The notes under the pieces are model-generated. The model saw nothing but the letters and a program-made list of their open reading frames with translations. It did not search any database and was not told the origin of the DNA. A stretch of 21,964 nucleotides of DNA, from the IMG/VR virus record IMGVR_UViG_3300022937_003539, positions 1 to 21,964 of that record. One strand, given 5' to 3'. The translations under genes and the position numbers were made by a program. This document shows, one piece after another, positions 5,053 through 21,964 of the stretch; within the stretch, counting starts at the first letter, position 1; each line of letters starts with the position of its first letter. The stretch is from a virus.

Positions 5053-5053
5053 A

Positions 5054-6283: not shown

Positions 6284-6293
6284 TATATAAGTT

Positions 6294-6380
6294 ATGGAGT
6301 TCGCATTTGTTGTTATTAGCGGCATATTATTTACAATCGCTTTATGCATTAAAAGCGATCACAACCCTTGGATCAAATGA
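6294..6380 (+). CDS. 28-residue single-pass membrane peptide
   Basis: An ATG at 6294 opens a short frame ending in TGA (6378-6380): MEFAFVVISGILFTIALC followed by IKSDHNPWIK. It has one hydrophobic helix (about residues 3-18) and a short polar, basic-aromatic tail, like many small phage membrane proteins. Coding is supported because it fills the only apparent gap here and its stop overlaps the next gene's ATG (6377) as ATGA, the junction style of this operon. No Shine-Dalgarno sequence is visible. Function is unknown; small phage inner-membrane peptides often act in lysis control or superinfection exclusion, but nothing here says which. Confidence 0.6.
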   Translation: MEFAFVVISGILFTIALCIKSDHNPWIK

Positions 6381-6553
6381 ATTTAATTAATCGTTTAAAC
6401 GTTAAGCGTTTTACATCAAAACTCTTAAAAGAGTTACGTCCAGAAATAACAAGAATTTCCCCATCTTTTTTAGAGAAGGTGGAAAAACAGGTTAAGTTGA
6501 CAGTTAAAGACTTAATCATAAATCATAAGTCAAAAGATAAAACACTAAAATGA
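6377..6553 (+). CDS. Small basic helical protein, unknown function
   Basis: 58 residues from the ATG at 6377, chosen over the TTG at 6368 because it gives the 4-base ATGA overlap with the upstream small gene. It is Lys/Arg-rich and helical, with the central segment RPEITRISPSFLEKVEKQVK; the tail is Lys-rich. A nucleic-acid-binding role would fit the charge, but there is no family motif I can name. The stop overlaps the next start as ATGA. Confidence 0.65.
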   Translation: MNLINRLNVKRFTSKLLKELRPEITRISPSFLEKVEKQVKLTVKDLIINHKSKDKTLK

Positions 6554-6852
6554 GTAATACAGCAGATACGCAAAATAACGAATGGAAAGAAAGAGAACTC
6601 GGAGCACTGTGGGTAAAAAGCGGTAAATCTGGAGATTTTCTTACTGGTCATTGTTTGGTTGATGGCAATCGAGTTGAAATGGTTGTTTTCAGAAACAAGA
6701 ATAAAACTTCTGATAAAGCACCAGATTATATTATGTATAAGTCAAAAGCATTAGAGGGTGATCACATTATAAAGAAAACACCTATTCAAAGTACAAATAC
6801 ATCTGATTCTAGTGAAGAAGAATCTGATGAAGTGCCAGCACTTTTACAGTGA
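6550..6852 (+). CDS. DUF736-like small protein
   Basis: 100 residues. The core ELGALWVKSGKSGDFLTGH (16-34) through APDYIMYKS (57-65) matches the DUF736-type pattern (GALW...G.F.tG...PDY). The family is common in phages and plasmids, and its biochemical role is not established. The last 25 residues are a Ser/Thr/Glu/Asp-rich acidic tail (SSEEESDE) reminiscent of the acidic tails of single-stranded-DNA-binding proteins; that comparison is inference. Both ends overlap neighbours by 4 bases. Confidence 0.72.
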   Translation: MSNTADTQNNEWKERELGALWVKSGKSGDFLTGHCLVDGNRVEMVVFRNKNKTSDKAPDYIMYKSKALEGDHIIKKTPIQSTNTSDSSEEESDEVPALLQ

Positions 6853-7307
6853 TTAGAACTATATCACAAGCTGATATATTGCCAATAATTAAACTCACTG
6901 AAAAGTTTTGGCTAGAATCTTGTAGTCAATCTTTGTTTGGAGAGTTTGATCCAAAGCATTACCAAAGATCGCTCATTCAACTGTTAAAATCAGAATTAAT
7001 GGTTGGATGGGCATCTTTTACCTCTGATAAAGAAATTAAAAGCATACTATTGGCTTGCTTAGATGTTTCTATATGGACCAATATAACTTTATTAAAGGAG
7101 ATAATGTGGTATACAGATCCAGCGCACAGAGGTAGCCCTTCATCTTTTAAACTGTATAAAGAGATGGAAAAATATGCAAAACAAAATGGATATGCTGGCG
7201 TAGTTATGGGGCGTATTAAAGGGCCTAATAATTATGATAAGTTAGATCAATTTTATATTAAGAATAATTTTAAATCTTTAGAAGATAGTTATATTAAAAT
7301 ATTATGA
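6849..7307 (+). CDS. GNAT-family N-acetyltransferase
   Basis: 152 residues starting at GTG (6849), which overlaps the previous stop as GTGA. Visible GNAT features are the N-terminal IRTISQADILPIIKL (2-16), the beta4 strand/acetyl-CoA loop MWYTDPAHRGSPSSFKLY (86-103) with the HRGSPSS pyrophosphate-binding turn, a following helix EMEKYAKQNGYAGVVMGR, and a C-terminal YIKNNFKSLEDSYIKIL. It would transfer acetyl from acetyl-CoA to an amine. In this setting the substrate could be an amino-sugar or a protein. Phages often carry such GNATs and substrates are rarely known. Confidence 0.78.
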   Translation: MIRTISQADILPIIKLTEKFWLESCSQSLFGEFDPKHYQRSLIQLLKSELMVGWASFTSDKEIKSILLACLDVSIWTNITLLKEIMWYTDPAHRGSPSSFKLYKEMEKYAKQNGYAGVVMGRIKGPNNYDKLDQFYIKNNFKSLEDSYIKIL

Positions 7308-7504
7308 TGAATATATCTGAGTTTGAGCGCAACAAGCCAAGAATAACATATAAAAAATTGAATGATTTAATTCAAGGTTATGAAACATATGTTAGAGAAA
7401 TGGATGTGATAATGGACGCAGAAGATGCTGCTTACAAACACGCGTATACTGTATTTATAGAAGAGTTAAAAGATTTACGTCATTCTTTTCTTAAAGGAGA
7501 ATAA
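7304..7504 (+). CDS. Small helical protein, unknown
   Basis: 66 residues, charged and predominantly helical by composition (KKLNDLIQGYETYVREM, then EELKDLRHSFLKGE). I recognise no family. The start overlaps the previous stop (ATGATGA allows ATG at 7304 or 7307). The final codons contain AAGGAG, which doubles as the ribosome site for the next gene. Confidence 0.6.
   Translation: MMNISEFERNKPRITYKKLNDLIQGYETYVREMDVIMDAEDAAYKHAYTVFIEELKDLRHSFLKGE
7494..7499 (+). promoter_or_regulatory. Strong ribosome binding site AAGGAG before 7504
   Basis: AAGGAG lies four bases before the ATG at 7504. It is one of few strong Shine-Dalgarno sequences in this run (the other is GGAGG at 11421-11425). It shows that the host ribosome can use such sites, while most overlapping starts here rely on coupling. 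Confidence 0.7.
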
Positions 7505-7737
7505 TGAAAGTCATAGCTAACATAGAGCATTCTAATTTTGAGAATGATTTTCTTTCGTCCAACTCATTTATTGATATTACTGGTACCGATGTAATGACTT
7601 TAAAAGTGGGAGCCAACAAATATTATTTTGATGTAAAGTCTACAGCTTTTACATCTAATAAACTCTTATTAGAAGGTATTATTTCTGATGATAAAGAGCT
7701 TTTAGGCAGATGTGTTTTAAACATTAAAATTCAATGA
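7504..7737 (+). CDS. Small beta-rich protein, unknown
   Basis: 77 residues with alternating hydrophobic/polar strands (FIDITGTDVMTLKVG, KYYFDVKSTAF, KLLLEGII, RCVLNIKI), suggesting a small beta-sandwich or barrel. No family is recognised. The ATG shares its A with the previous TAA. A strong ribosome site precedes it, so it is probably well expressed. It ends with an ATGA overlap into the epimerase/reductase gene. Confidence 0.6.
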   Translation: MKVIANIEHSNFENDFLSSNSFIDITGTDVMTLKVGANKYYFDVKSTAFTSNKLLLEGIISDDKELLGRCVLNIKIQ

Positions 7738-8576
7738 AACCATTATTATTAGGATCCACTGGCTATATAGGTCAAAAATTCGCACAAAAAATTGACTGTG
7801 TGAAAATGAAGCATCAAGATGTTAGCGTAAGAAATTTATTAAAATTATGGGCTCAAACATCTTTTGATACAATTATTAATTGCGCCGGTGTGGTTGGTCG
7901 TCCTAATGTAGATGCTGTAGAAAAACGTAAAGAAGACGCTGTTAATGGAAATGTGGTATTGCCAGCTATATTAGCTCAATTTGCTAATCTACAGAAGGAC
8001 ATGAAAATTTTACATGTCTCTACAGGCTGTTGTTATGAATCAAATCAAGGTCAAGTTTTTACAGAAGATGATGAGCCAAATTTAGATTGGAATGGAAAAC
8101 AAACGTGCAGCTTTTATTCTGGGTCTAAATCATTAGCAGAGAAATGGATTCAATCATATGAAAAGCATTATATTTGTAGATTGAGAATGCCTTTTGATAA
8201 ATATGACGGAGAAAGAAATTATCTATCTAAGTTAATGAATTATGGTAAGATTTTATCTGCATCTAATTCTTTGTCTCATAGGGATGATTTTGTTAACTCT
8301 TGTTTAAAGTTATTAGAGATTAAAGCTAACTATGGAACATATAACATAGTTAATACTGGATTTATTAATGCAAAGGTTATTTGCAACTATATAAATTCAT
8401 ATACGAATATTAAAAAAGATTTTAAATTTTTTGAAGATCTAGAAGAATTTTACTTTGAAACAAAATCTGTACTGCGTAGCAATTGCATGCTTAGTAATAA
8501 AAAGCTGCTTGACGCTGGTGTAAGTATCAGAAATGTTGATGAAGCAATTATAGATAGTTTAAAAAATTGGTCATGA
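7734..8576 (+). CDS. NDP-4-keto-6-deoxyglucose 3,5-epimerase/4-reductase, RHM/UER type
   Basis: 280 residues, extended SDR fold: GSTGYIG (7-13, NAD(P) loop), INCAGVVGRPNVD (48-60), STGCCYE (96-102), active-site YSGSK (128-132), and CRLRMPF (148-154). GRPNVD, STGC, SFYSGSK and LRMPxD are the pattern I associate with the C-terminal domain of plant RHM, with UER1/NRS-ER and with giant-virus homologues, rather than with classical bacterial RmlD. These enzymes convert the 4-keto-6-deoxyglucose nucleotide to L-rhamnose in one polypeptide, replacing separate RmlC and RmlD. The 4,6-dehydratase that makes the substrate is the next gene, overlapping by 4 bases. Whether the carrier is UDP or dTDP cannot be read from sequence. 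Confidence 0.8.
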   Translation: MKPLLLGSTGYIGQKFAQKIDCVKMKHQDVSVRNLLKLWAQTSFDTIINCAGVVGRPNVDAVEKRKEDAVNGNVVLPAILAQFANLQKDMKILHVSTGCCYESNQGQVFTEDDEPNLDWNGKQTCSFYSGSKSLAEKWIQSYEKHYICRLRMPFDKYDGERNYLSKLMNYGKILSASNSLSHRDDFVNSCLKLLEIKANYGTYNIVNTGFINAKVICNYINSYTNIKKDFKFFEDLEEFYFETKSVLRSNCMLSNKKLLDAGVSIRNVDEAIIDSLKNWS

Positions 8577-9829
8577 AATATTTAATTACTGGCGGCTCTG
8601 GATTTATAGGTTCAAATTTCATTGAGTATATTCTTGCAGATGATAAAACTAAAAGAGTATATAATATAGATAAATTAACATATGCTGCCGATAAAACTTT
8701 TGCTCCAAAGGATGAAAGATATACTTTTACTCCTTATGATATTGCAGATATACATGATTTAAATTTAGTCATAAGAAATCACAAGTTTGATGTGGTTGTA
8801 AATTTTGCTTCTCATTCTCATGTAGATAATTCTATATCTAACCCAGAGTTATTTTGGAGCAATAATATCTCTTCTTATTGTAGATTTTTGTTTACCTGTC
8901 AAAAAATGCAGCAAGACGGAGATATTGGTAAATTTATTCACATATCTACTGATGAAGTGTTTGGTGACACTGATGTAGATCATCCATTTAACGAAGCTTC
9001 GTTATTTAAACCATCATCTCCATATTCAGCTTCCAAAGCAAGCCAAGAGATGTTTATACATTCACTTAGAAAGATGTATGGATTTAAAGCTAATATTGTT
9101 AGGTTATGTAATAATTATGGACCTCGACAATACAAGGAAAAACTTTTACCTGTTGTTATCAATGCAATATTAAAAGGAAAAGATATACCTGTATATGGGG
9201 ATGGCAATCAAAAAAGAGAATGGATTCATGTAAAAGAGTCTGCTGATATAATCAATCAAATTGCTTGCAATGTTAATGACAATGAAGATTATTGTATAGG
9301 GTCAGGTAACGTCAAAACAAACATTGAAGTGATTAAAATGTTAAATTCTTTATTTAATGGTAATAATCATGATAATATTAAGTTTGTTGTTGACAGAATA
9401 GGTCATGATAAGCTATATTTAACAGATAGTAGTAAAGTTGACTTTGCTTATCCAAAACGAAATAAAATACAGTTTGAAGATGGGCTAAAAGAAACATTTG
9501 AATTTTTCAAAAATAAATTTGACAACATAAAATTATTAGTTAATATAAATAAAAATATTATTCATGCTATGAGCGAAAATAATAGTTTACATAATGGAAG
9601 CACTTTAATGAGTGCCATTGAAAAAGCTACACCTGTACAGGTTGATACTTTATGGAGTATTCTCAAGTATAAGGAAATCGGAATTCTGCGAAAAGTAAAA
9701 TGTATGAGCGATGTATTGCATCTTGATACGAATAATGTTCTTGATGAATTGCCAGCAGATCAAGAGGGTCGATTACTTGATTACAAGACTCGACACATGA
9801 TTCATGACACTTTAATTAAAGTATCTTAA
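8573..9829 (+). CDS. NDP-glucose 4,6-dehydratase with fused ~86-residue tail
   Basis: 418 residues from ATG 8573; the TTG at 8567 is rejected because 8573 gives the ATGA overlap. RmlB-type motifs: GGSGFIGS (7-14), NIDKLTYAAD (31-40), SHVDNS (82-87), STDEVFGD (125-132, with the catalytic Asp-Glu pair), YSASK (151-155) and NNYGPRQ (180-186). It should remove water from NDP-glucose to give the 4-keto-6-deoxy sugar for the preceding enzyme's product. The dehydratase fold should end near residue 320-330. From Met333 there is an unrelated tail (MSENNSLHNG onward) that looks like an independent small phage protein joined in frame. An ATGA lies exactly at that point (9569-9572), suggesting the two were once separate genes or that a base is miscounted upstream. 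Confidence 0.86.
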   Translation: MKYLITGGSGFIGSNFIEYILADDKTKRVYNIDKLTYAADKTFAPKDERYTFTPYDIADIHDLNLVIRNHKFDVVVNFASHSHVDNSISNPELFWSNNISSYCRFLFTCQKMQQDGDIGKFIHISTDEVFGDTDVDHPFNEASLFKPSSPYSASKASQEMFIHSLRKMYGFKANIVRLCNNYGPRQYKEKLLPVVINAILKGKDIPVYGDGNQKREWIHVKESADIINQIACNVNDNEDYCIGSGNVKTNIEVIKMLNSLFNGNNHDNIKFVVDRIGHDKLYLTDSSKVDFAYPKRNKIQFEDGLKETFEFFKNKFDNIKLLVNINKNIIHAMSENNSLHNGSTLMSAIEKATPVQVDTLWSILKYKEIGILRKVKCMSDVLHLDTNNVLDELPADQEGRLLDYKTRHMIHDTLIKVS

Positions 9830-9833
9830 TTTT

Positions 9834-10064
9834 ATGGCTAACAATAGCGAAACAGCAACTGGCTCTTATATTGTAAGAGATAAACGTGGAGCATATATGG
9901 GGGCTTACAGTGAAAAATTGGGCTCAACAAATGCTAAAATCTGGGCTACTGACTGCGCTAGACAATCGAGAGGTATCCTGTATTACCGGGAAACTCAAGA
10001 AGGTGAAGAGCGCGAGATTCAAAGCTTTATTGAGCTTGGTAAAAAAACTGTCTCTTCTGAGTAG
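9834..10064 (+). CDS. Small protein, unknown function
   Basis: 76 residues with the segments SYIVRDKRGAYMGAYSE (11-27) and RGILYYRETQEGEEREI. It looks like a small beta-rich domain with a charged C-terminus. I do not recognise a family. It starts four bases after the previous stop, and its TAG stop shares a G with the next gene's GTG start (TAGTG). No glycan-related motif is visible. Confidence 0.6.
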   Translation: MANNSETATGSYIVRDKRGAYMGAYSEKLGSTNAKIWATDCARQSRGILYYRETQEGEEREIQSFIELGKKTVSSE

Positions 10065-10816
10065 TGCTGAATAAAAAAAGCATATATTTACCTGTTATAG
10101 CGTACGGTGGCAGTTGCCGCGCAGAGTTTGCTATGAGTTGTTCTGGCTTGTTTGTTAAAACAATTCAGAATCACCCTAATCTTTCAATCCAATCAACTGG
10201 AATATTTTTTGAAAGTTTAGTCTCAAGAGCAAGAAATGCCGCAGCAGCTGCTGCCTTACATTATAAAACAGATTATTTATTATTTATTGATGCTGATATT
10301 GCATTTGATGCAGATGACGTATTCAAATTAATAAAGCACGATAAAGATGTAGTTTGTGGACCATATGCTAAAAAGTATCTAAGCGAACAAAAAATTCAGT
10401 ACCTTACAAAACATAAGCCAGAAGTGTTTGATACAAACGAATGGAAATCTTTATCTACAGACTTCTCTTCAGAAATCAAACCTAGTAGCTCTGATTTAAT
10501 TGAAGTAGATTATGCTGCCACAGGTTTCATGCTAATAAAAACTGACGTATTTAGAAAAATAGCTTTAAATTTTCCAAAAATTAAATATAAAAATGATATA
10601 GATGGTTATTTAACTTGGGGTGATAATTTTTATAACTTTTTCCCAGCAGAGATCAATCAGTCGTCTTTAAAATATGAAAGTGAAGATTATGGATTTTGTA
10701 AATTATGGAGATCTATTGGTGGCAAAATCTTTTTGGATACTTCGATCAATTTACACCATATTGGCAATATGACTTACGAAGGAAATTTAAAACAACAATT
10801 ACAAACGTATAAATAA
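10064..10816 (+). CDS. GT-A glycosyltransferase (Anp1/GT2-like phage type)
   Basis: 250 residues from GTG 10064 (TAGTG junction). LLFIDADIAFDADD (72-85) contains the DxD metal/nucleotide-sugar motif. SRARNAAAAAALH (54-66), ATGFMLIK (152-159), ESEDYGFCKLW (205-215) and LHHIG (230-234) follow in the order seen in GT-A enzymes such as the Anp1/mannosyltransferase-like and phage GT2-like groups, where a late acidic pair and a C-terminal His complete the site. The short length and lack of membrane helices suggest a soluble enzyme. The product is unknown. The TATAAATA spanning its last codons is produced by Tyr-Lys-stop. Confidence 0.78.
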   Translation: MLNKKSIYLPVIAYGGSCRAEFAMSCSGLFVKTIQNHPNLSIQSTGIFFESLVSRARNAAAAAALHYKTDYLLFIDADIAFDADDVFKLIKHDKDVVCGPYAKKYLSEQKIQYLTKHKPEVFDTNEWKSLSTDFSSEIKPSSSDLIEVDYAATGFMLIKTDVFRKIALNFPKIKYKNDIDGYLTWGDNFYNFFPAEINQSSLKYESEDYGFCKLWRSIGGKIFLDTSINLHHIGNMTYEGNLKQQLQTYK

Positions 10817-10817
10817 T

Positions 10818-11441
10818 ATGGGATGTTTTAGCGTTAACAAAGCAATCATTAATCCAAACTATAAGAAAAATTTTATTGTAGTAGATAATTTTTATGAGAA
10901 TCCAGATTATGTAAGAGAGTTTGCTTTACAGCAAAACATGGTTGCTCATCCAGAAAGCCATAAAGGCTGTAGAACAGACGATAGATTTTTTGCCCCGAAT
11001 ATGAAAGAAGTTTTTGAAAATATTTTGGGACGCAAAATAGCTAATTGGTACAATCAAGATTACTGTAATGGAGTTTTTCAATATTGCACTACTAACGATC
11101 CTATTGTTTACCATTGTGATAATCAGGATTGGGCTGGAGCAATTTATTTGACGCCAGATGCACCGTATGATAGTGGTACTTCATTTTTTGCATCCAAATA
11201 TAAAGGTTTCAGAGATGCTACAGATCCTAATTTTAATTTTGAAAAAATTTTTAATGGAGAGTTTTTAAATAGAGCTAGGTTTGATAAGGTGGACGAAATT
11301 GGAAATGTGTATAATAGGTTAGTTATATGGAACTCTAGATTAATTCATGCGGCCACAAGTTATTTTGGATCGAATCCAGAAAATTCTAGATTGTTTCATT
11401 TATTCTTTTTTGATTTAGAGGGAGGACAAAACCATGAGTGA
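10818..11441 (+). CDS. DUF6445-like protein with 2OG-Fe(II)-oxygenase-type residues
   Basis: 207 residues. VVDNFYENPDYVREFAL (21-37) is a common opening in phage and bacterial proteins of the DUF6445 or related jelly-roll type. YHCDNQDWAGAIYL (98-111) supplies a HxD pair (His99, Asp101), followed by SGTSFF (119-124), a distal LIHAATSYFG (175-184, His177) and Arg191. That layout matches Fe(II)/2-oxoglutarate oxygenases, so hydroxylation of a protein, sugar or small molecule is plausible but the substrate is unseen. Its end overlaps the next gene by 8 bases and carries that gene's ribosome site. Confidence 0.65.
   Translation: MGCFSVNKAIINPNYKKNFIVVDNFYENPDYVREFALQQNMVAHPESHKGCRTDDRFFAPNMKEVFENILGRKIANWYNQDYCNGVFQYCTTNDPIVYHCDNQDWAGAIYLTPDAPYDSGTSFFASKYKGFRDATDPNFNFEKIFNGEFLNRARFDKVDEIGNVYNRLVIWNSRLIHAATSYFGSNPENSRLFHLFFFDLEGGQNHE
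11421..11425 (+). promoter_or_regulatory. Strong ribosome binding site GGAGG before 11434
   Basis: GGAGG is followed after eight bases by ATG (11434). It lies inside the last codons of the upstream gene (Glu-Gly-Gly-Gln). It confirms the start of the second oxygenase-like gene. Confidence 0.75.
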
Positions 11442-11940
11442 AAATGTTTCTGTTATTGATAATGTTTTATCAATTGATTTATGTCATGAATTAGTTGATA
11501 AATATAAGCAAACGCCTCATTGCAATAGAACAAATAAAACAATATGGAGTGAAAATATCATCCATCATTCAAATTATGTTTTAGTTAATGATCTAAATAA
11601 TCATGAGAGGAATAAGGTGCTGCAACATGTATTTAAAGTATTGCCTGAATATTCTGATGACAATATTCACGCTATGTTTTATAGGTGGACTAAATTTTCT
11701 TATATTCCACCCCATGATGATCAGCATGTGGATTATGCTATTACTATCCATTTAAATGTAAACTATACAGCAAGTCAGGGAGGCGTTTTCATGTATAAAG
11801 AGCAAGATGACATTCATTGGACTGGAGTCGAACCTATTTTTAATAGGTTGGTTTGCAATAAAAATCATATTGTTCATTGGGTTACTCCTGTAACATCTAA
11901 CGAAGATCGCTACTCATTACAGATATTCCCCATAAAATGA
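11434..11940 (+). CDS. 2OG-Fe(II) oxygenase-like protein
   Basis: 168 residues. IPPHDDQHVDYAITIHLN (91-108) gives the HxD metal pair (His94, Asp96); ASQGGVFMY (113-121) is the usual GG-x-[FL] strand; NHIVHWVTPV (144-153) supplies the distal His148; EDRYSLQIF (157-165) supplies Arg159 for 2-oxoglutarate binding. This is the compact prolyl-hydroxylase-like layout of many phage dioxygenases, with a short N-terminal helical part. It would couple oxidative decarboxylation of 2-oxoglutarate to hydroxylation of an unknown substrate. The start is supported by GGAGG, and the end overlaps the next oxygenase by 4 bases. Confidence 0.8.
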   Translation: MSENVSVIDNVLSIDLCHELVDKYKQTPHCNRTNKTIWSENIIHHSNYVLVNDLNNHERNKVLQHVFKVLPEYSDDNIHAMFYRWTKFSYIPPHDDQHVDYAITIHLNVNYTASQGGVFMYKEQDDIHWTGVEPIFNRLVCNKNHIVHWVTPVTSNEDRYSLQIFPIK

Positions 11941-12656
11941 TTAATATAGATTTATTTAATAATAAAGAGGTGTACAATCAAATATATACCAAAAACTCTC
12001 CTTTTCCTCATATTGTATTTGAAGAGTTATTTGATAAAACGTTAATTAAAGAAGCTGCAAAGGAAGCCAAAGTTTTTTGTAATGATTATTTAAGATCTCG
12101 ACCAATGACGGAAGAACATGAATTTCAATCTAAAAAACATGGTGTTAATAATATTTTAGAATTGCCCCCTGTTCTAAGATTGATTTGTAAATATATTAAT
12201 AATCCAGATTTTATTGCATTTTTAAGAAAAATTACTGGCTTGAAGTCTATAATAGGAGATTCGTATTTTATGGGAGGTGGATTACATTTTACGGAGCGCG
12301 GGGGCAGATTAGGAGTTCATCATGATTTTAATTTTTTAGGAGATAAAAATACTCCGGATTATTATAGAAAATGCAACTTAATTATTTTTTTAAACGATAA
12401 GTGGGATGATAGTTGGGGTGGAGGATTAGAGCTTTGGGATAAAAATCTTATGTCAAAAAGACATGTAGTTATGCCTAAATTAAACAGAGCTGTGTTGTTT
12501 AATATTGAAAATGCTCCGCATGGTCATCCAGATCCTTTGAATTGCCCAACGCAAGAGTCCAGAAGAAGTTTAGCTTTCTATTTTTATGATAAGATCCCCA
12601 CAAAGAATCGTTTATATGAGAGAGCTTACTGGAAATTTGGTAATGTTTTGAGGTGA
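11937..12656 (+). CDS. 2OG-Fe(II) oxygenase (prolyl 4-hydroxylase-like)
   Basis: 239 residues. LGVHHDFNF (125-133) carries HxD (His128, Asp130), CNLIIFLNDKW (146-156) and WGGGLELWD (160-168) form the central strands, NAPHGHPDP (192-200) gives the distal His (195 or 197), and SRRSLAFYFY (208-217) gives the 2OG-binding Arg. These match prolyl-hydroxylase-type oxygenases. Homologues in glycan loci are annotated as hydroxylases of proteins or sugars. The N-terminal 100 residues (SPFPHIVFEELFD early on) are typical for the longer subgroup. It follows the previous gene with ATGA, so the three oxygenase-like genes form a tight block. Confidence 0.84.
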   Translation: MINIDLFNNKEVYNQIYTKNSPFPHIVFEELFDKTLIKEAAKEAKVFCNDYLRSRPMTEEHEFQSKKHGVNNILELPPVLRLICKYINNPDFIAFLRKITGLKSIIGDSYFMGGGLHFTERGGRLGVHHDFNFLGDKNTPDYYRKCNLIIFLNDKWDDSWGGGLELWDKNLMSKRHVVMPKLNRAVLFNIENAPHGHPDPLNCPTQESRRSLAFYFYDKIPTKNRLYERAYWKFGNVLR

Positions 12657-12680
12657 TTTTGTAACATAAAATATATTTAT

Positions 12681-13115
12681 ATGAAAATAGCAATAGTTAG
12701 CGGCGGCTTCGACCCTATACATATTGGACATATTGAGTTAATGCAAAGAGCACGTTCATTAGCTGATGCTTTGATTGTGATTATAAATGACGATCAATTT
12801 TTAATAAATAAAAAAGGTAAATTCTTTATGCCATTCTTTGAGCGCAAAAAGATTGTAGAAAGCATTAAATATGTAGATATGGCAATAAAATGCATTGACA
12901 AAGATCAAACAGTATGTCAGACTTTAAGAGGTCTTGCTTCTTGCAGAGCTTTAATTAATAATCAACCATATGAAAAACTATTTTTTTGTAATGGAGGAGA
13001 TAGAACTTCCGGTGAAAATACGCCTGAGCATTTAGTTTGTTCAGAATTAGGTATTGAATCGGTTTATGGTCTTGGAGCTAAAATTCAAAGCAGTAGCTGG
13101 CTCACTAATAAATAA
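12681..13115 (+). CDS. Sugar-phosphate/glycerol-phosphate nucleotidyltransferase (HldE-C/TagD-like)
   Basis: 144 residues. SGGFDPIHIGH (7-17) contains the HxGH catalytic motif of the nucleotidyltransferase superfamily; GKFFMPFFERKKIVE (46-60) and FFCNGGDRTS (101-110) follow, and the protein ends AKIQSSSWLTNK, close to the SSSW-x-L ending I know from phage and bacterial members. It would activate a sugar- or polyol-phosphate with CTP or ATP; heptose-1-phosphate or glycerol-3-phosphate are the usual substrates of near relatives. The TibC-like domain downstream would need an NDP-heptose, which fits, but no heptose kinase or phosphatase gene is visible. AT-rich DNA with no SD precedes the ATG. 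An overlapping frame continues past the stop (see 13066-13218). Confidence 0.85.
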   Translation: MKIAIVSGGFDPIHIGHIELMQRARSLADALIVIINDDQFLINKKGKFFMPFFERKKIVESIKYVDMAIKCIDKDQTVCQTLRGLASCRALINNQPYEKLFFCNGGDRTSGENTPEHLVCSELGIESVYGLGAKIQSSSWLTNK

Positions 13116-13218
13116 TTTTTTTGATGATTTTTTAAAACTTATTAATTCTAATTTAGCAAGCTCTGAAACTAATTTAGGTTATTGGAGGAAAGAGCGGCGA
13201 CATATTGAAAATGAATGA
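13066..13218 (+). CDS. Small ORF, or frameshifted C-terminus of the nucleotidyltransferase
   Basis: A frame open from before 13066 (ATG) to TGA 13216-13218 encodes about 50 residues; the part beyond the upstream stop reads NNFFDDFLKLINSN followed by ETNLGYWRKERRHIENE. It fills the 99-base space before the next glycosyltransferase and ends with an ATGA overlap (13215), like the real genes here. Either it is a small gene starting inside the upstream one, or it is the continuation of the nucleotidyltransferase after a +1 shift near its TAA (13113-13115), where AATAAATAATTTTTTT offers slippery or error-prone DNA. No good ribosome site precedes the ATG. Confidence 0.4.
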   Translation: MVLELKFKAVAGSLINNFFDDFLKLINSNLASSETNLGYWRKERRHIENE

Positions 13219-13934
13219 AAAAAATATTAATTTACTCTTATTATATTGATCCAAACAATTTAAGAAGAAAAGAAATCAACCATGTGTTGGAAAAAAACTT
13301 TTCTGCAGGATTTGATTATATTTTTATACATTCAGAGGCTTCTATCGAAGAAATTAAAAATCAAATTGACTTTAACACGCTATCTCCACACACTCAATTG
13401 ATGATTGGATTGATTAGCCAAAGACCTACTTTTAATTCTTTATTCAAAACAGCAGAACACAAAATTCTTAAAGATATTAAAGATAAATTATTGTTTGTTG
13501 CAAATTCAGATATTTATTTTGATAAACTGCAAGAATATGAAAGAATATATAAAGTTTTTCAACACAAAGAAAAAATTGCTTTAGCTCTTTCTAGATGGGA
13601 CATACAAGAAGATGGCTCTTCTCAGTTTGTTGATCGTTTAGATAGCCAAGATGCTTATGTTTTTTATGGGGACATCGAGTTCAGATTAAAAAAAGATTTT
13701 TGCATGGGTGTGCCGGGATGTGATAATCGTTTAGTTTATGATTTAATCGAAGCTGGATATAATGTCTTAAATCCCAGTTTAAATTTAAAAATTTATCATT
13801 ACCATATTAGTGACGTTAGAAGGTATATGGGTGAAGGAGAAGTGCATAAACCTTTTCTCGGTAACGAAAAACAAAGAATAGATGGTCCGTATGCCATACT
13901 ACCAGTTTTAGATATACGTAAACATGATGGATAA
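13215..13934 (+). CDS. Putative GT-A glycosyltransferase (LPS-locus type)
   Basis: 239 residues. The ordered motifs RPTFNSLF (70-77), ANSDIYFD (96-103), SRWD (126-129), SQDAYVF (144-150), PGCDNRLVYDLIEAGY (167-182) and YHYH (194-197) match a family I recognise from LPS and capsule loci and phages. NSD would replace the DxD and a late Asp-Asn pair would close the site. It has no membrane helices. Donor and acceptor are unknown. The start is ATGA-coupled to the small upstream frame, and the end overlaps the next gene by 11 bases. Confidence 0.7.
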   Translation: MKKILIYSYYIDPNNLRRKEINHVLEKNFSAGFDYIFIHSEASIEEIKNQIDFNTLSPHTQLMIGLISQRPTFNSLFKTAEHKILKDIKDKLLFVANSDIYFDKLQEYERIYKVFQHKEKIALALSRWDIQEDGSSQFVDRLDSQDAYVFYGDIEFRLKKDFCMGVPGCDNRLVYDLIEAGYNVLNPSLNLKIYHYHISDVRRYMGEGEVHKPFLGNEKQRIDGPYAILPVLDIRKHDG

Positions 13935-14805: not shown

Positions 14806-15750
14806 ATGGCCAAAGAGATTTATTATCAAATACACTGCTCTACACTTGGAGATGTTCTAAGTGCAACTCCTACTATACGCAAATTACATAAAGTTTATGG
14901 ACAAAAAATCAATGTAGTTAACAATAATTCAGCAGTTTTAAAAAACAACCCCAGAATTAGCAAATTAATTAGGCACGAAGAATTTAATCCATCACATCTT
15001 TCAAATGGAGATGAATGGTTTCAAAGTTATGTATTAGCTGGTTTGCCAAATCAGTTTGGAGTAGAAAAGAAGTTTAATACAATTGATATAAGATTGATAC
15101 ATAGTTTAGATTTAGGTTTTGGTTTAATGCCAGAGGAAATGAGCTGTGAATTTTACCCAGACGCATATACCAACCCCTTTAACCTTCCTGATCATTATAT
15201 AGTTTTACATACGGCAAAAAACTGGCCCAATAGAACGTGGCCAAGAGAAAGCTGGCAGAAAATAATTAATTATCTTAACGATAGAAAAATATACACAATT
15301 TTAATTGGTAAAAATGTTGAAGAAAAAGATTTTCATTATATTAAAAAAGATTTTTATGAATTTGATAATATTTATGGTCAAAATCTAATCAACAAAGATA
15401 CTTTAGATATATGCTGGCACATATTGAATAATGCTAAATTATTTATAACATTTGATACAGGTCCTTTACATTTAGCAGGTACAACAGATGTTTCTATATT
15501 GCAACTAGGTAGCGCCAAAGATCCTAGATTAAGCGCTCCATATAGATATGGTACGCAAGATTACAAATATGAGAATCTAAAAGGTCCGTGTGACATATAC
15601 TGTACAAACAATATTAAGTATTCAATTAAAGAGTGGGGCACAATAAATGCAGTGCCACCACTACCTACTTGTTTAGAAGGTAAAGAAATATTTGAATGTC
15701 AACCTTCTGTGGATCAAGTGATTGAGTATTTAAATAAAAATTTATCATGA
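14806..15750 (+). CDS. GT9-like heptosyltransferase-fold glycosyltransferase
   Basis: 314 residues with a complete GT9-type GT-B layout: QIHCSTLGDVLSATPTIRKL (8-27) matches the N-terminal acceptor lobe (GDxLxxTP), HTAKNWPNRTWPRESWQ (135-151) starts the second lobe, and FDTGPLHLAG (216-225) is the donor-binding GPxHLA loop. Family members transfer heptose or other sugars from ADP/UDP donors to LPS cores; the phage acceptor is unknown. The C-terminus has several Cys (GPCDIYC, LPTC, FEC). The ATG follows directly after the previous stop. The end is ATGA-coupled to the next gene. Confidence 0.86.
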   Translation: MAKEIYYQIHCSTLGDVLSATPTIRKLHKVYGQKINVVNNNSAVLKNNPRISKLIRHEEFNPSHLSNGDEWFQSYVLAGLPNQFGVEKKFNTIDIRLIHSLDLGFGLMPEEMSCEFYPDAYTNPFNLPDHYIVLHTAKNWPNRTWPRESWQKIINYLNDRKIYTILIGKNVEEKDFHYIKKDFYEFDNIYGQNLINKDTLDICWHILNNAKLFITFDTGPLHLAGTTDVSILQLGSAKDPRLSAPYRYGTQDYKYENLKGPCDIYCTNNIKYSIKEWGTINAVPPLPTCLEGKEIFECQPSVDQVIEYLNKNLS

Positions 15751-16439
15751 GGATAGCTGTACTAACCGCTTATACAAAGAATAACCCATGGACCGACAAT
15801 GGTAAATGTGATTTTTTGGAAGCTGCATATCCAAATCATATGGATTATTGTTTAAAGCATGATTATACTTATATAGCAGAATGTTACGAGGATATCGAGA
15901 TAAAAGGCATTCATCCTACATGGATTAAAATATTCGCTATACAAAAGTTCATTAAACATTTTGATTATGTATGTTGGATAGATGCTGATGCTATTTTTAC
16001 AAATTCAGATTTCACTGTAGAACAATTTTTAGAAGAGGATACGAATTTAGTTTTATGCCAAAGTAATCCAGATAAAAGAACTAATAACATGTTCACAGTT
16101 ATCAATACTGGATTTATGATATTTAAAAATAATAGTTGGTCACACAATTTGTTACAATCGTTAGTTGATAATTCTGGAGTTTTTAAAACAGAATATTTTC
16201 AAGAACAAACTGTATTAGATAATTATTTGAAAGATAATGGATATTATGATAAATCTCCAATACTCAATAGCATGTCAAGCGATTCATTAAAAGAACGTTA
16301 TCAATATAATAATATTATTATACTTCCCTCTACTTATCATTGCTACGAAATCTCAGATAAACCTAAGTTTATTTATCACGCCGCAGGTGATTCAGCAAAC
16401 AAGAAGAATAAATTAATTCAATATTTACAAAACGTATGA
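15747..16439 (+). CDS. GT34-like (GMA12/MNN10-type) glycosyltransferase
   Basis: 230 residues. HPTWIKIFAIQKFI (56-69), WIDADAIF (77-84, DxD), NTGFMIFKN (120-128), EQTVLDNYL (153-161) and a C-terminal IYHAAGD are the ordered motifs of GT34 alpha-galactosyl- or xylosyltransferases (GMA12/MNN10 pattern). It should be a retaining enzyme with a metal ion. Eukaryotic members are membrane-anchored, whereas this one has no signal anchor and is the bare catalytic domain. It overlaps both neighbours by 4 bases. Confidence 0.8.
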   Translation: MRIAVLTAYTKNNPWTDNGKCDFLEAAYPNHMDYCLKHDYTYIAECYEDIEIKGIHPTWIKIFAIQKFIKHFDYVCWIDADAIFTNSDFTVEQFLEEDTNLVLCQSNPDKRTNNMFTVINTGFMIFKNNSWSHNLLQSLVDNSGVFKTEYFQEQTVLDNYLKDNGYYDKSPILNSMSSDSLKERYQYNNIIILPSTYHCYEISDKPKFIYHAAGDSANKKNKLIQYLQNV

Positions 16440-19400
16440 TAAAGAAGGAGTACAAATTTGGAATTTATACATCTTTCTATAACGCAGAAAGATTTATTGA
16501 TGACATCTTTAAACAGTTCGAAGCAATTAATTATCAAAATTGGAAATGGATAGTTACAGATGATTTTAGCTCTGATAACACTAAGAACCTCTTAATTCAA
16601 AAATGTAAACAATATGATTTTGTAGAATATGTCGAGCAGCAACATAAAAAGGAGATGTATTGGCAACCTAATAAGTTTTTTGATGATAGTTTTGATTATG
16701 TGGTGCTTATGGATTGTGATGATGAGTTTGATGTTGAGTTCTTGAATATATACAATCACTTTGCAAATCAATATCCTGATGCTGTTTATTTAACAAGTGA
16801 CATGATCAAAATAGAAGGTGATCGAACACACTCACTTTCTTTAATTCATAATCACACAAACCTATTAGATAAATTAGATCATTATCATCCATTAGTTAAT
16901 TACGTCAACAATCCATCTTATTATTGCCTTGGTTATTTGCGCTGCTTTAAAAATATACCAACTTTAGATTTTAAGATAGACGATTTCAATGCGTGTGCTG
17001 AAGATTCCTACAGGGCCATGTATATGAATAGTTTGGGCAAATGGCTCCATATACCCAGAGTCCTTTACAAATGGATTGTAAGAAAAGATTCTGAATCTCA
17101 CTCTCAAGTGGTGGAAAATTTCAATGGTAATTTTGATGGCGCTTATAATAGAATAAAAGATCAATGCTATGATCCTTATTATGACTTTCAAGATGTGTAC
17201 AAAGAAACATCAGCTTTACAATTAATTGGCACCAGTGAATTACATAATAAAAATATTTGTATTATTTCACGAGGTTTAACAAACGAGCAAAAGAATAAAT
17301 TACGTAATCTGTATTTTGACTGCGAGTTATTTTTCAACAAACAACCAAATTGCGATCACTATGTTGTAGTATTAAATTATTTTAATGACTCTTATTGTAA
17401 TGAATTAGATGATTGGATAAAAATAAATGCTGGTAGCTGTAAAACAACTTATTATTATTTTGAAGAAGAGTGTCATGAAAACATGGACGCTTTAAATGCT
17501 AAAATAGCTAAAAAGTTTCATCCAATCATTGATAGCAGAAATAATTTTTTTATGTATTTTCGTCACAATTATACAACAATACAACAAGAGAAAAAAAATA
17601 AACTATTATTTATAGCGCCGCATTTGTCGACTGGTGGCTCTCCAGCTTATTTAGAGTGGTTGATTGGCAAACGTAAATCAGAAGGCTATGACGTAAAAGT
17701 ATTAGAGTATTCTTATTATGGCGCATATGACGTTCAAAGAAAGCGTATTAAAAAATTAGTTGGAGATCATAATTTTATTAGTTTTTGTACACATTGGGAA
17801 GATGATGAAAAGATTATATCAAGAGGAAGTGATGTTGTTGATATGGTCAAAAAAATTAATCCAGACATAATACATTTAAATGAAATTTCTGAGATATTTT
17901 GTTACAAACCATTTGTTCAAGAGTTAAAAGATTACCTGTACAATCCAAACAAATCTTTTAAATTAATTGAAACATGTCATACGTCTGAATTTGATTTTAA
18001 GAAAAAAACATCTATTCCTGATGAATTTCATTTCTGTAGCCCATACCATGCCACTTTAACAAATCACATTGATATACCAAAGATTTTAGTGGACATGGAG
18101 TTACCTAAAATAGAGCGCCCAGATAGAAAAAAAGCGCTGAGCAATCTGGAGCTATCTCCTGATTATTATCATGTTTTAAATGTTGGGTTGTTTAACGAAT
18201 TTAAAAATCAAAAATATATTTTTGAATTAGCCAGTAAATTACAAGACTACAAAATACAATTCCATTTTATAGGTAACGATTGTTATTTAGGTAATTGTGG
18301 TATTGATGAAAATTTACTAAATCTTCCGAATTGTATCGTTCACGGAGAAAAAAATAATGTGCTGGAGTACATGGCGGCTGTAGATTTATTTTTATTTTCT
18401 TCTCTTAAAGAGCTTAATCCAATTTGTTTAAAAGAAGCTATTAGTTGCGATCTGCCTATTTTCATGTATAATTTAGATGTCTATAATGGGCATTATGATA
18501 ACCATCCTTTAATTTCATACATTAAAGAAGATAACGTTTTAAATTTTTTATTAAATAAAATGAATACAACTTATGATCATATAATTAACGAATCTGGAAG
18601 TCTTGGGGATTGTTTAGCGTGGGCTCCTATTGTGGCGGAATACGCTAGACAAAAAGGTAAAAATGTTAATTACTATACTCCTCATAAAGACATTTTAGAA
18701 GATTCGTATCCTCAAGTTAATTTTTATAATTATTCAGATAAAAATAATATCACTGAAGGCGAAGTTGTTTCCATAGGGTGTTTTACTGGATCAGATTGGC
18801 AAACAAAAAACCTACAAAAAGTAGCGACTGATATTTTGGGCATGGAATTTAAAGAAGTTCGTTGCCAAATTTCTCATAAATTCAAAAAGAAAAATAACTT
18901 TGATAAAAAATATGTATGTATTGGTACTCAATCAACTGCTCAAGCTAAGTATTGGAATAACCCGACAGGATGGCAACAAACTGTAGATTATATAAAAGAG
19001 TTAGGTTATGAAGTTGTTTGTATAGATAGAAATGCTTCTTTTGGTGTGGATGGAAAATTTAATTATATGCCTAAAAATTGCATAGATAGAACAGGAGATT
19101 TTCCTTTACAAGATAGAATTAATGATTTGTTTCATTGCGAGTTTTTTATTGGTCTTGGCTCTGGATTGTCTTGGTTAGCATGGGCTTGTGGAAAACCTGT
19201 TATTATGATTTCTGGATTTTCCGCTCCGTATGCTGAGTTTACGACTCCTTATAGGCTTATCAATGAAAATGTATGTAACAGCTGTTGGAACGATACAGAA
19301 TGTAAATTTGACGCTAATAATTGGTTGTGGTGCCCAAGAGATAAAAACTTTGAATGCTCAAAAGAGATTAGCTTTGATATGGTTAAAGAAAAAATTAATC

Positions 19401-20050
19401 AACTTTTAAACATAGGACAAAAGAATATTCATCAAAGTACATATCACGAAATTTTTGAGTTGAATCAATACCAACAATTTGTTCAAGTAGAGCAAAATGA
19501 TTTTGTTTTAGACGTGGGTTGTTCGCAAGGCCCATTTTATTTTCAAAACAAAGATAAACATATTGACTATGTAGGAGTTGACGCGAGCATACATTGTATA
19601 GAAGATTTTTACTCAAATCTCACCAACGAAGATTTAACAATCATTAATGCAATCATAAGTCCAAAAACAGGAATTCAAAAATTCAATTGGTTTATTTATA
19701 ATGAGCCCGAAGTAAAAGTTAATTCAATAACTTTTCCAGCATTAATGAAATTACTCAATAGAAAAATTGATTTTTTTAAATTTGATATCGAGGGATACGA
19801 GATGACCTTCTTAAAAGATTATTATGATTTATTTAAAAAATACATCTATAAATTTGCTGGAGAACTACATTTTTTAAATAATCCATGGAGTCGAGCAGAG
19901 TTTCATGAGATGTTGTTAAAACTTAAAGAAGATTCACAAATTGAATTTAAATTATATTCTTTGGATATGATAGACATTACAACTTCTTATTATGATAATG
20001 GCGATTATTATACCGAAATTATTATTAATGGATATGTTAAACAATCATGA
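16436..20050 (+). CDS. Four-domain fusion: GT2 + GT-B + TibC-like O-heptosyltransferase + FkbM methyltransferase
   Basis: 1204 residues. (1) 5-250: GT2 GT-A domain, KFGIYTSFYNAERF (7-20), TDDFSSDNT (41-49), MDCDDEFD (92-99) with DxD. (2) About 388-705: GT-B/GT4-like domain, FIAPHLSTGGSPAYLE (392-407), GLFNEFKNQ (584-592), LKELNPICLKEAISCDLPI (657-675). (3) About 713-992: GT9-like lobe starting NESGSLGDCLAWAP (718-731), with GLGSGLSWLAWACGKPV (906-922) and a cysteine cluster CNSC (947, 950), Cys956, WCPR (Cys966), FEC (Cys974). This matches the iron-finger region of bacterial autotransporter O-heptosyltransferases (TibC type). (4) About 1000-1200: FkbM-type methyltransferase, LDVGCSQG (1025-1032) and FKFDIEGYE (1114-1122). 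All four carry recognisable active-site motifs. Middle residues 265-385 are a linker-like region. The start is ATGA-coupled. Confidence 0.85.
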   Translation: MIKKEYKFGIYTSFYNAERFIDDIFKQFEAINYQNWKWIVTDDFSSDNTKNLLIQKCKQYDFVEYVEQQHKKEMYWQPNKFFDDSFDYVVLMDCDDEFDVEFLNIYNHFANQYPDAVYLTSDMIKIEGDRTHSLSLIHNHTNLLDKLDHYHPLVNYVNNPSYYCLGYLRCFKNIPTLDFKIDDFNACAEDSYRAMYMNSLGKWLHIPRVLYKWIVRKDSESHSQVVENFNGNFDGAYNRIKDQCYDPYYDFQDVYKETSALQLIGTSELHNKNICIISRGLTNEQKNKLRNLYFDCELFFNKQPNCDHYVVVLNYFNDSYCNELDDWIKINAGSCKTTYYYFEEECHENMDALNAKIAKKFHPIIDSRNNFFMYFRHNYTTIQQEKKNKLLFIAPHLSTGGSPAYLEWLIGKRKSEGYDVKVLEYSYYGAYDVQRKRIKKLVGDHNFISFCTHWEDDEKIISRGSDVVDMVKKINPDIIHLNEISEIFCYKPFVQELKDYLYNPNKSFKLIETCHTSEFDFKKKTSIPDEFHFCSPYHATLTNHIDIPKILVDMELPKIERPDRKKALSNLELSPDYYHVLNVGLFNEFKNQKYIFELASKLQDYKIQFHFIGNDCYLGNCGIDENLLNLPNCIVHGEKNNVLEYMAAVDLFLFSSLKELNPICLKEAISCDLPIFMYNLDVYNGHYDNHPLISYIKEDNVLNFLLNKMNTTYDHIINESGSLGDCLAWAPIVAEYARQKGKNVNYYTPHKDILEDSYPQVNFYNYSDKNNITEGEVVSIGCFTGSDWQTKNLQKVATDILGMEFKEVRCQISHKFKKKNNFDKKYVCIGTQSTAQAKYWNNPTGWQQTVDYIKELGYEVVCIDRNASFGVDGKFNYMPKNCIDRTGDFPLQDRINDLFHCEFFIGLGSGLSWLAWACGKPVIMISGFSAPYAEFTTPYRLINENVCNSCWNDTECKFDANNWLWCPRDKNFECSKEISFDMVKEKINQLLNIGQKNIHQSTYHEIFELNQYQQFVQVEQNDFVLDVGCSQGPFYFQNKDKHIDYVGVDASIHCIEDFYSNLTNEDLTIINAIISPKTGIQKFNWFIYNEPEVKVNSITFPALMKLLNRKIDFFKFDIEGYEMTFLKDYYDLFKKYIYKFAGELHFLNNPWSRAEFHEMLLKLKEDSQIEFKLYSLDMIDITTSYYDNGDYYTEIIINGYVKQS

Positions 20051-20400
20051 TAACACTAAAAGTAGACGAAGCTTATGCTTTTGATTATCTAAGTATATTA
20101 GAAATTAAAAAATATAAAACTAACGATGAATCTAAATGGTTAGAATGTCTTGATCATTTGTCTTGTCAATTTGATATTGACTTCTTTAAAGAAATGATTG
20201 CATCTCAAGAGTACAAAGACATGATTAAAGCTAACGAATTAACATTTAAAGCTGTGGATAAAGCTAAAAGAAATGAAGTTAGCGCCAAAGATGTAGATTA
20301 TTGTAACTTTCAAAGACACTTAGCAAAAGAAAACTTCCAAAGAAAATTCTTTGGAAGTGATCTATCGGAGAAAAAAATAGGATACGAAAAATATTTATAA
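20047..20400 (+). CDS. DUF6165-like small protein, last gene of the glycan operon
   Basis: 117 residues. The opening DEAYAFDYLSILEIKKYK (7-24), a mid segment ELTFKAVDKAKRNEVSA and RHLAKENFQRKFF (89-101) resemble the DUF6165 layout (G-E-xxDxLTILEIK, N-xxLWxxED, LA-xxNdxR), a helical family found next to LPS glycosyltransferases and in phages. The function is unknown; its repeated placement beside glycan genes suggests a structural or regulatory partner. ATGA-coupled to the giant fusion gene. Its TAA overlaps the stop of the minus-strand gene (TTATAA). Confidence 0.62.
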   Translation: MITLKVDEAYAFDYLSILEIKKYKTNDESKWLECLDHLSCQFDIDFFKEMIASQEYKDMIKANELTFKAVDKAKRNEVSAKDVDYCNFQRHLAKENFQRKFFGSDLSEKKIGYEKYL

Positions 20401-20925: not shown

Positions 20926-21483
20926 TTATACAAGAGGAGGAAATGGAGGTAATGGCGGCAAATTAACATTAGATGCTCCAGTAGGTATATCTGGCCAACT
21001 TACGCCTGTATTAGATTCTGAAAAATTATCAAACATTCCCCGAAGCTCGACTCTGAATGTAGCAAATTCTTGTTTGCTTTCTTCAGAAATAGGGGCGTCA
21101 GGCAACTGCGTAAAATCTGTTTCCCTTAAATAAACATTTCTTATTTCTCTAGCCCTAAAAAGCCATTGATTTTTTTTATCTTCTATTTCTGCACCTGTTA
21201 AATTAATTATATTGTAACTCACATCAACTACTTCGCTTTCAGCATTTACTGCATATATTTCGCCTAGTTTTTGCGAAAATGATAATTCTGGTTTTTCTGC
21301 GTAAGCTGCTTGCCAAAAAGCTAAATCCGGCTGATTAATCCAAGACATGTCCTTTAATAAATTTGGATTATTATCTGCTATTAAATTAAAGTTTGAAACT
21401 TCACCATAAATTGACGGTAAAGGCTCTGGGCCTTTTAAAATTAAAGGATTTCCATTGTTTAGGTGTATTAAAAAATAATTCAT
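20926..21483 (-). CDS. Tail-fibre-assembly/XkdW-like protein
   Basis: 185 residues from ATG 21481-21483; longer frames from 21534 run into the upstream gene and are rejected. IRNVYLRETDFTQLPDAPIS (114-133) followed by ESKQEFATFRVELRGM matches the pattern RxxLLxxTDWTQLPDxP...WxxYRxxLR seen in phage tail-fibre-assembly and XkdW-like proteins, which help fold or attach receptor-binding fibres. The N-terminal half (NLIADNNPNLLKDMSW) is unassigned. The last 11 residues are proline-rich (LPPLPPFPPLV). The gene follows the LamG-like fibre gene by 11 bases, the classic fibre-then-chaperone order. Confidence 0.74.
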   Translation of the reverse strand: MNYFLIHLNNGNPLILKGPEPLPSIYGEVSNFNLIADNNPNLLKDMSWINQPDLAFWQAAYAEKPELSFSQKLGEIYAVNAESEVVDVSYNIINLTGAEIEDKKNQWLFRAREIRNVYLRETDFTQLPDAPISEESKQEFATFRVELRGMFDNFSESNTGVSWPDIPTGASNVNLPPLPPFPPLV

Positions 21484-21494
21484 ATTATTATATA
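21484..21494 (-). promoter_or_regulatory. TATATAAT element directly before the start at 21483
   Basis: The 11-base gap between the LamG-like gene's stop and this ATG contains TATATAAT (21494-21487), repeated before the next minus-strand gene. There is no Shine-Dalgarno sequence in this gap. Confidence 0.35.
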
Positions 21495-21964
21495 TTATTG
21501 TAATTTTAAATATTTCTGCATATAAGCACTGCAAAGAGCACTTAATATAGGGCTTTCATAACCAGAGCCTAATGGAACTGGATTGATATTATCCCACAAA
21601 GCGATATGACCTATTTTCACATTTGAATATTGATAACTACTTGCGAAAGATCTCCCTATGGACATCCCATAACTCTGAAACGTTTCCCAACTATTATTTG
21701 AATTAGAAGATACAATTGCTACATTAAATCTATTGATTTGATTATTATAATACATCTGAGATGTAAAATAATTATAATTACTCAAAGAGCTTATATCAAA
21801 AGCTACTACAGTCGGAAAAGTCGTGGAGACACTTACTCCAGTACTATCAACATTGCTCCCATCAGAAAATTCAAGAGTAGAATAACCACTCGAATTAAGA
21901 CCAAAATACCAATATCTTCCGTTACTTGTATTATAGGAACCACAATAAACATTGTTAAAACCAG
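21495..21964 (-). CDS. LamG/concanavalin-like fibre or adhesin protein, C-terminal part (5' end outside window)
   Basis: The frame is open from the window edge (about 21962) to TAA at 21495-21497, so only the last ~156 residues are present; the TTG at 21785 is not the true start. The sequence is rich in Ser, Asn, Tyr and Gly and has strand-turn repeats (NGRYWYFGLNSSG, STLEFSDGS) ending in SNVKIGHIALWDN, which resembles the closing strand (IGxIxIWN...) of LamG/concanavalin-A-like domains used in phage receptor-binding fibres. It probably binds a host surface glycan. Its Ser/Asn-rich loops could also be glycosylation targets; that is inference. Confidence 0.66.
   Translation of the reverse strand, partial: GFNNVYCGSYNTSNGRYWYFGLNSSGYSTLEFSDGSNVDSTGVSVSTTFPTVVAFDISSLSNYNYFTSQMYYNNQINRFNVAIVSSNSNNSWETFQSYGMSIGRSFASSYQYSNVKIGHIALWDNINPVPLGSGYESPILSALCSAYMQKYLKLQ

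Follow-up and report, generated by a model that had tools for sequence, protein, structure and literature searches.

The IMG/VR virus record IMGVR_UViG_3300022937_003539 (21,964 bases; this whole stretch is called the window below) carries a glycan island in which one plus-strand open reading frame (ORF), at positions 16436-20050, runs for 1204 codons with zero internal stops. A first-pass annotation, made from the sequence alone, had read this frame as a single polypeptide carrying three glycosyltransferase (GT) domains and a methyltransferase, and we recovered both the exact coordinates and the uninterrupted frame. Five modules are recognised in the chain, four of which correspond to known enzyme families (Table 1).

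Table 1. Features of the window; residue numbers refer to the 1204-aa chain.
Feature	Residues	Position	Strand	Evidence or remark
Multidomain glycosyltransferase/methyltransferase gene, 1204 aa		16436..20050	+	single open frame
Module 1, GT-A fold GT2 glycosyltransferase	1-255	16436..17200	+	PF00535; D42-D43, D93-x-D95-D96, D190
Module 2 (MID), alpha/beta domain	256-386	17201..17593	+	pairwise match in L014; profile hits after GT2; model
Module 3, GT-B fold GT4 glycosyltransferase	387-706	17594..18553	+	PF00534/PF13692; N591-Q592, E659-x7-E667
Module 4, TibC-type GT9 heptosyltransferase domain	714-992	18575..19411	+	D725, K838, C947/C950/C966/C974; no N-terminal barrel
Module 5, FkbM-family class I S-adenosylmethionine-dependent methyltransferase	994-1204	19415..20047	+	PF05050; class I methyltransferase matches
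117-aa companion protein ('DEAYAFDYLSILEIKK')		20047..20400	+	4-nt overlap with main gene; adjoins TibC cassette in other phages
GT34-like (GMA12/MNN10) glycosyltransferase, upstream		15747..16439	+	PF05637 E=2.5e-15
Separate GT9 glycosyltransferase		14806..15750	+	PF01075
Nucleotidyltransferase, HldE-C/G3P-cytidylyltransferase type		12681..13115	+	phrog_7878 E=1e-22
Nucleotide-sugar enzymes: RmlD-like reductase and NDP-sugar 4,6-dehydratase		7734..9829	+	PF04321, PF16363
Tail-fibre assembly chaperone flanking glycan island		20926..21534	-	PF16778 above cut-off; phrog_4912

Pfam models scored above cut-off for the GT2 module (PF00535, 46 versus 23 bits, residues 12-137), the GT4 module (PF00534, 37 versus 26 bits, residues 570-679, with PF13692 also above cut-off), the GT9 module (PF01075, 29 versus 22 bits, residues 817-953) and the FkbM module (PF05050, 33 versus 23 bits, residues 1058-1165). 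The NCBIfam model TIGR04414 (hepto_Aah_TibC) matched residues 716-989 with 285 bits against a cut-off of 200, covering profile positions 87-373 of 374, and the FkbM part reached 21.7 bits with TIGR01444, under its cut-off of 37.7. Two halves of the chain (residues 1-712 and 705-1204) were modelled with AlphaFold from alignments of viral relatives, giving mean predicted local distance difference test (pLDDT) values of 86 and 92, respectively; predicted template modelling (pTM) scores of 0.56 and 0.68 make the relative placement of the domains unreliable. The GT2 model is confident save for short stretches near residues 130-165 and 225. Foldseek matched the N-terminal half to GT-A and GT4 enzymes, with BshA, MshA and WaaG for the GT4 domain, and the C-terminal half to TibC (4rap, root-mean-square deviation 1.9 Å) and class I methyltransferases.

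The catalytic motifs of all four enzymes are intact. They comprise the DxD and catalytic Asp of the GT-A fold (D93, D95, D96 and D190), E659-x7-E667 of the GT-B fold GT4 domain, G724-D725 of the TibC-type domain and D1026-x-G1028 with D1117 of the FkbM domain, all of them conserved in relatives. The first-pass annotation had placed active-site motifs of four enzyme types in this order; they were found where it had placed them, and domain search and structure prediction support all four folds. Its domain map had, however, skipped a fifth conserved module, which we call MID (residues 256-386). Alpha/beta elements are visible there in the AlphaFold model, and the segment matches the region behind GT2 in locus L014. 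Profile annotation recognises MID directly behind most GT2 modules among relatives, so GT2-MID behaves as one unit.

The best solved relative of module 4 is Escherichia coli TibC (4RAP; phmmer E=1e-62). Aligned with TibC (BAHT; TIGR04414, PDB 4RAP and 4RB4), the domain keeps the catalytic GT-B core, both catalytic positions (D725 for Asp110 and K838 for Lys230), the beta-hairpin insertion and the four-cysteine iron finger, its C947, C950, C966 and C974 aligning with cysteines 339, 342, 358 and 370. Asp110 is the residue whose Ala mutant is the inactive 4RB4 form, and characterised members of the TibC family glycosylate proteins (PMC4358343). The window domain differs in being one module of a 1204-aa chain, with no autotransporter partner seen in the window, and in two structural respects. 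The GT4 module ends near residue 706 and the TibC core begins near 714, with the profile match starting at 87, so that the N-terminal barrel is absent, and F265-V266 of TibC are replaced by G-K. In TibC, deletion of the N-terminal beta-barrel (1-97) abolishes activity on TibA, and the hydrophobic thumb tip F265/V266 is needed for the dodecamer (PMC4358343). A TibC-style dodecamer is disfavoured for the window protein on both counts. Lacking barrel and hydrophobic thumb tip, module 4 is best regarded as a TibC-type catalytic domain for which the ring-shaped autotransporter mechanism is not to be taken for granted.

Much the same was seen in a set of 120 phage TibC modules. All but one of them retain Asp110 (119/120), the exception being an ORF whose start lies beyond the motif, and Lys or Arg stands at position 230 in 120/120; the iron-finger cysteines are present in 100% by construction, the modules having been chosen for them. 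Both thumb-tip residues are hydrophobic in only 12/120, at a spot where the alignment is gappy, and the barrel and/or thumb tip is also missing from many other phage TibC modules. An in-frame TGA considered as stop recoding in the TibC gene of locus L020 lies upstream of the gene's start region, which rules recoding out there.

The missing barrel and altered thumb tip could also be taken as marks of a decaying or partly dead fusion, in which at least one domain is inactive and merely holds the chain together, and the frequent fusion and fission described below would be expected to yield non-functional intermediates. We consider this improbable, given that none of the four enzymes has lost its catalytic residues, which are conserved even between deeply diverged relatives, and that barrel-less TibC modules recur and are retained.

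Relatives were gathered by genome scans with the TibC alignment and with GT2, FkbM and GT4 alignments, the best 80 loci being taken from each, and every ORF was annotated with profiles for the five modules. With the TibC alignment, 432 stretches of viral contigs were found to encode relatives, and the other scans added more; the whole chain, used as a single query against viral and bacterial genome collections, gave no match. About 31 module strings occur across 263 non-redundant proteins. The window string, GT2-MID-GT4-TibC-FkbM, was met once among these best-scoring loci, while all four enzyme types stand together in nine other proteins, in two orders differing from that of the window: GT4-GT2-MID-FkbM-TibC (four occurrences) and GT4-GT2-MID-TibC-FkbM (three), with two more reading GT4-GT2-TibC-FkbM, MID being below threshold. 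Further strings include a second GT9 fused ahead of GT4, GT4-TibC, TibC-FkbM, FkbM-TibC and GT4-FkbM. The earlier impression that no described protein has this exact order thus stands for the order itself, found in no other protein of the set, but the gene is no singleton: it belongs to a large viral family in which all four types occur together in those nine proteins and also as runs of separate genes. At locus L086, for instance, GT4-GT2-MID, TibC, a further TibC-type gene and FkbM are spread over adjacent genes, and at L016 FkbM is a separate 211-aa gene, 61% identical to the window module, which overlaps the TibC gene by 4 bases and whose start codon falls at the module boundary.

The L016 arrangement, in which one small indel would separate or join the two genes, raises the question of an assembly artefact, that is, of a sequencing error having joined adjacent genes into one frame. 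TibC-FkbM fusions are nevertheless present in many contigs of independent origin, and the same fusions turn up again in separate metagenomes (for example L088, L089 and L092), which leaves this explanation with next to no probability.

Every window module has a different closest relative (GT2 in L085/L086 at 66-67% identity, GT4 in L116 at 57%, TibC in L088 at 62.5% and FkbM in L016 at 61%), and for this reason the chain is a mosaic. A tree of the 120 TibC modules calls for a minimum of 33 switches of the module's N-terminal partner and 23 of its C-terminal one, counts that are rough, as the tree is a quick one and some of the switches come from incomplete contigs and from the 'unassigned' category. 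Closely related modules flanked by different partners (L088/L183 and L084/L071) show that rearrangement is recent and continuing. Judged from these comparisons, phages swap, fuse, split and reorder GT2-MID, GT4, GT9/TibC and FkbM modules. The genome-collection scan with the GT2 alignment returned one match, a 1144-aa GT2-MID-x-TibC protein at 5998-9432 of a contig from a Chloroflexi metagenome-assembled genome (L108), which may be a viral contig in the bin.

Seventy-five loci, several of which share a contig, have a cassette of variable content flanked by conserved genes. Where the left side is held, it consists of a zinc-motif gene and a nicotinamide adenine dinucleotide (NAD)-dependent epimerase; on the right follow an opposite-strand GT4 gene, then phoH and, further on, the terminase. 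The small companion gene is often found at the cassette end in these loci, likewise in the window. By gene context, the cassette occupies one fixed hypervariable site in many relatives, and the window phage belongs to another group. Its tubulin-like protein and the next three genes share 54-78% identity with their counterparts in contig G001 (78% for the tubulin itself), whose island contains a TibC gene that stands alone and lacks the barrel, together with a 1534-aa multi-glycosyltransferase and genes resembling those of heptose pathways. With cassette parts present in this other group too, such parts appear to move between phage groups. Clustered at 1903-13598 of G001 (locus L257) are genes resembling heptose-7-phosphate kinase, a HAD/HldE-C fusion and an HddA-like kinase, together with GDP-mannose dehydratase and GDP-fucose-synthase-like genes; all scores of the heptose-kinase-like and HAD/HldE-C-like genes are below curated cut-offs.

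The 1204-aa gene overlaps the preceding glycosyltransferase gene and the following 117-aa gene by 4 nt each, and from these coordinates the three genes are probably translationally coupled. Homologues of the 117-aa companion, 51-68% identical, stand close behind the cassette in seven other loci (L011, L013, L014, L032, L034, L041 and L086); the family is about 117-132 aa long and has an invariant DEAYAFDYL. Protein family matching gave a marginal CagE_TrbE_VirB hit and nothing convincing, and a comparison with DUF6165, a possible distant relation, gave an hhalign probability of 11%. The separate GT9 protein shares 43-47% identity with the GT9 module fused ahead of GT4 in L016, L034 and L040. 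The nucleotidyltransferase, a possible sugar-donor enzyme, reached 58 bits with TIGR01518 and 43 bits with TIGR02199, both under cut-off, and has a 57% identical homologue in the related phage contig G001.

Taking locus and relatives together, we find it somewhat probable that the gene encodes a soluble enzyme that builds a short glycan and caps it with a methyl group, the likeliest carrier being a virion (fibre) protein. Such a cytoplasmic multi-enzyme would assemble part of the glycan: the TibC-type domain would transfer heptose or a heptose-like sugar, probably onto a protein side chain, the GT2 and GT4 domains would add further sugars, and the FkbM domain would O-methylate a hydroxyl and so cap the chain. 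The acceptor would most likely be a virion protein such as a tail fibre, the product a phage-specific methyl-capped surface glycan, and the gene one state of a hypervariable modular cassette whose shuffling would alter the glycan without new enzymes. Cytoplasmic glycosylation of a virion protein is favoured by the protein-modifying nature of characterised TibC enzymes, the tail-assembly chaperone and the lack of transmembrane segments, none of which is plausible in any protein of this 22-kb fragment, which speaks against a lipid-carrier O-antigen route. In L005 and L002, related GT or FkbM genes have collagen-like fibre genes for neighbours. We count the HldE-type nucleotidyltransferase of the window and the heptose-pathway-like genes of G001 in favour of a heptose donor.

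Several points weigh against this picture. The absence of the barrel and the G/K at the thumb tip mean that the known TibC substrate mode is not retained, and membrane or structural genes could lie outside the 22-kb window. What the sequences show is the open frame, the five modules with their folds and intact motifs in the four enzymes, and the shuffling of modules in relatives; the activity of every domain, their order of action, the heptose donor and the virion acceptor are things we infer. Other authors read phage glycosyltransferase islands as modifying host lipopolysaccharide (PMC7029224).

Remodelling of the lipopolysaccharide (LPS) or capsule of the infected cell, which would block superinfection by competing phages, is accordingly the chief competitor, and nucleotide-sugar genes do lie within the island. 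GT9, GT4 and FkbM families are, moreover, common in LPS/O-antigen loci. The same proposal is made for pelagimyophage host-recognition clusters (PMC7029224). Against it, the window has no transmembrane protein, flippase or lipid-carrier glycosyltransferase, and the GT9 domain belongs to the TibC type, which modifies proteins, rather than to the WaaC/WaaF type. Pfam and PHROG scans of the window revealed no flippase, polymerase or lipid-linked step, and the membrane flippase and membrane-anchored transferase typical of GtrABC-type O-antigen conversion were not found in the fragment. We regard host-surface modification as unlikely.

Three successive genes within the island (10818-12656) match DUF6445 or 2OG-Fe(II) oxygenases and possibly hydroxylate the acceptor or a sugar. 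Lying upstream of the main gene, they also bear on DNA hypermodification, in which glycosyltransferases would decorate modified phage bases against restriction, as DNA-acting glycosyltransferases do exist in T-even phages (PMC9614988, PMC7029224). The oxygenases, however, match 2OG-FeII_Oxy_3-type families and not TET/JBP, and scans with Pfam, NCBIfam and PHROG matched no known DNA glycosyltransferase family and found no base-modification genes in the window, which makes this explanation very improbable.

A glycan-building and methyl-capping chain would not be without parallel. A064R of the chlorovirus PBCV-1 combines two rhamnosyltransferases and a methyltransferase in 638 aa and extends and methyl-caps the viral capsid glycan (PMC9614988), and A111/114R of the same virus is a three-glycosyltransferase chain (PMC7826918). 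Both are, like the window protein, viral polypeptides with several GT domains, and both build part of a capsid glycan; A064R further resembles the window protein, in how it works, by joining several GT domains to a methyltransferase. It belongs, however, to a eukaryotic algal virus and is composed of a GT34-like domain, a new GT family and a methyltransferase, with no GT9/TibC. By analogy, A064R can serve as the characterised precedent for a viral GT-GT-methyltransferase chain. The idea of a compact assembly line that primes, extends and caps a glycan, put forward in the first-pass annotation, keeps its footing in the four enzymes with intact catalytic residues on a virus contig with a tail-assembly gene, but viral chains of that kind have been characterised before. 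'Prime, extend and cap' is fairly called a hypothesis, and domain order need not be reaction order.

Bacterial capsule-polymerase multienzymes (for example those of Actinobacillus pleuropneumoniae serotype 3, PDB 8QOY; heparosan synthase 2, PDB 8VIW), structural matches by Foldseek to the GT-A/GT-B half of the window protein, likewise place several glycan-building domains on one chain. Those enzymes are, in contrast, polymer synthases, and we know of no TibC or FkbM module in them. The 1226-aa 'methyltransferase FkbM' of Microcystis phage Mel-JY01 (WWT39291) shares GT4, a weak methyltransferase match and a TibC-type domain, but its order is another, GT2-MID is missing and its TibC domain is C-terminal with a weak TibC_1st (barrel) match. 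Glycosyltransferases in hypervariable islands have been described for marine T4-like phages, and the host recognition cluster of pelagimyophages and cyanomyophages is also a variable island of tail-fibre and glycosyltransferase genes; fused modular chains and a TibC iron-finger module do not figure in the parts of that description consulted (PMC7029224). Chains predicted to hold several GT domains are found in giant viruses and tailed phages, and our search of the open-access literature yielded no account of phage proteins built from this set of modules or of shuffled TibC chains.

More tentatively, the fixed site might act as a combinatorial glycan locus where the structure of a methyl-capped virion glycan depends on which modules are present and in what order, a possibility we would not put high. 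It would be a surface-diversity generator with a logic like that of modular polyketide synthases or bacterial capsule loci. If so, phages of aquatic bacteria would owe the diversity of a surface glycan to reshuffled enzyme modules rather than to point mutations, dozens of natural permutations could be used to relate module content and order to glycan structure, and the TibC iron-finger family, known from bacterial adhesins, would gain a widespread viral role, often in barrel-less form.

At 3-1208 the window encodes a member of the Tubulin/FtsZ family (PF00091) whose C-terminal part gives a weak TubZ-like match, which suggests a phage with its own cytoskeletal filament; tblastn of this homologue among phages gave no match, and no near DNA match of the whole window was found among phages. 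In a 735-kb uncultured phage (L002, 9809-17782), a collagen-repeat protein lies beside two large GT chains of 1140 aa and 738 aa, with a TibC-type domain at the end of the shorter one. Finally, the 'FkbM' gene of Synechococcus phage DSL-LC02 (L005, 4353-6506) encodes fused TPR, FkbM, radical SAM and SPASM domains and adjoins collagen-like and tail-fibre genes.

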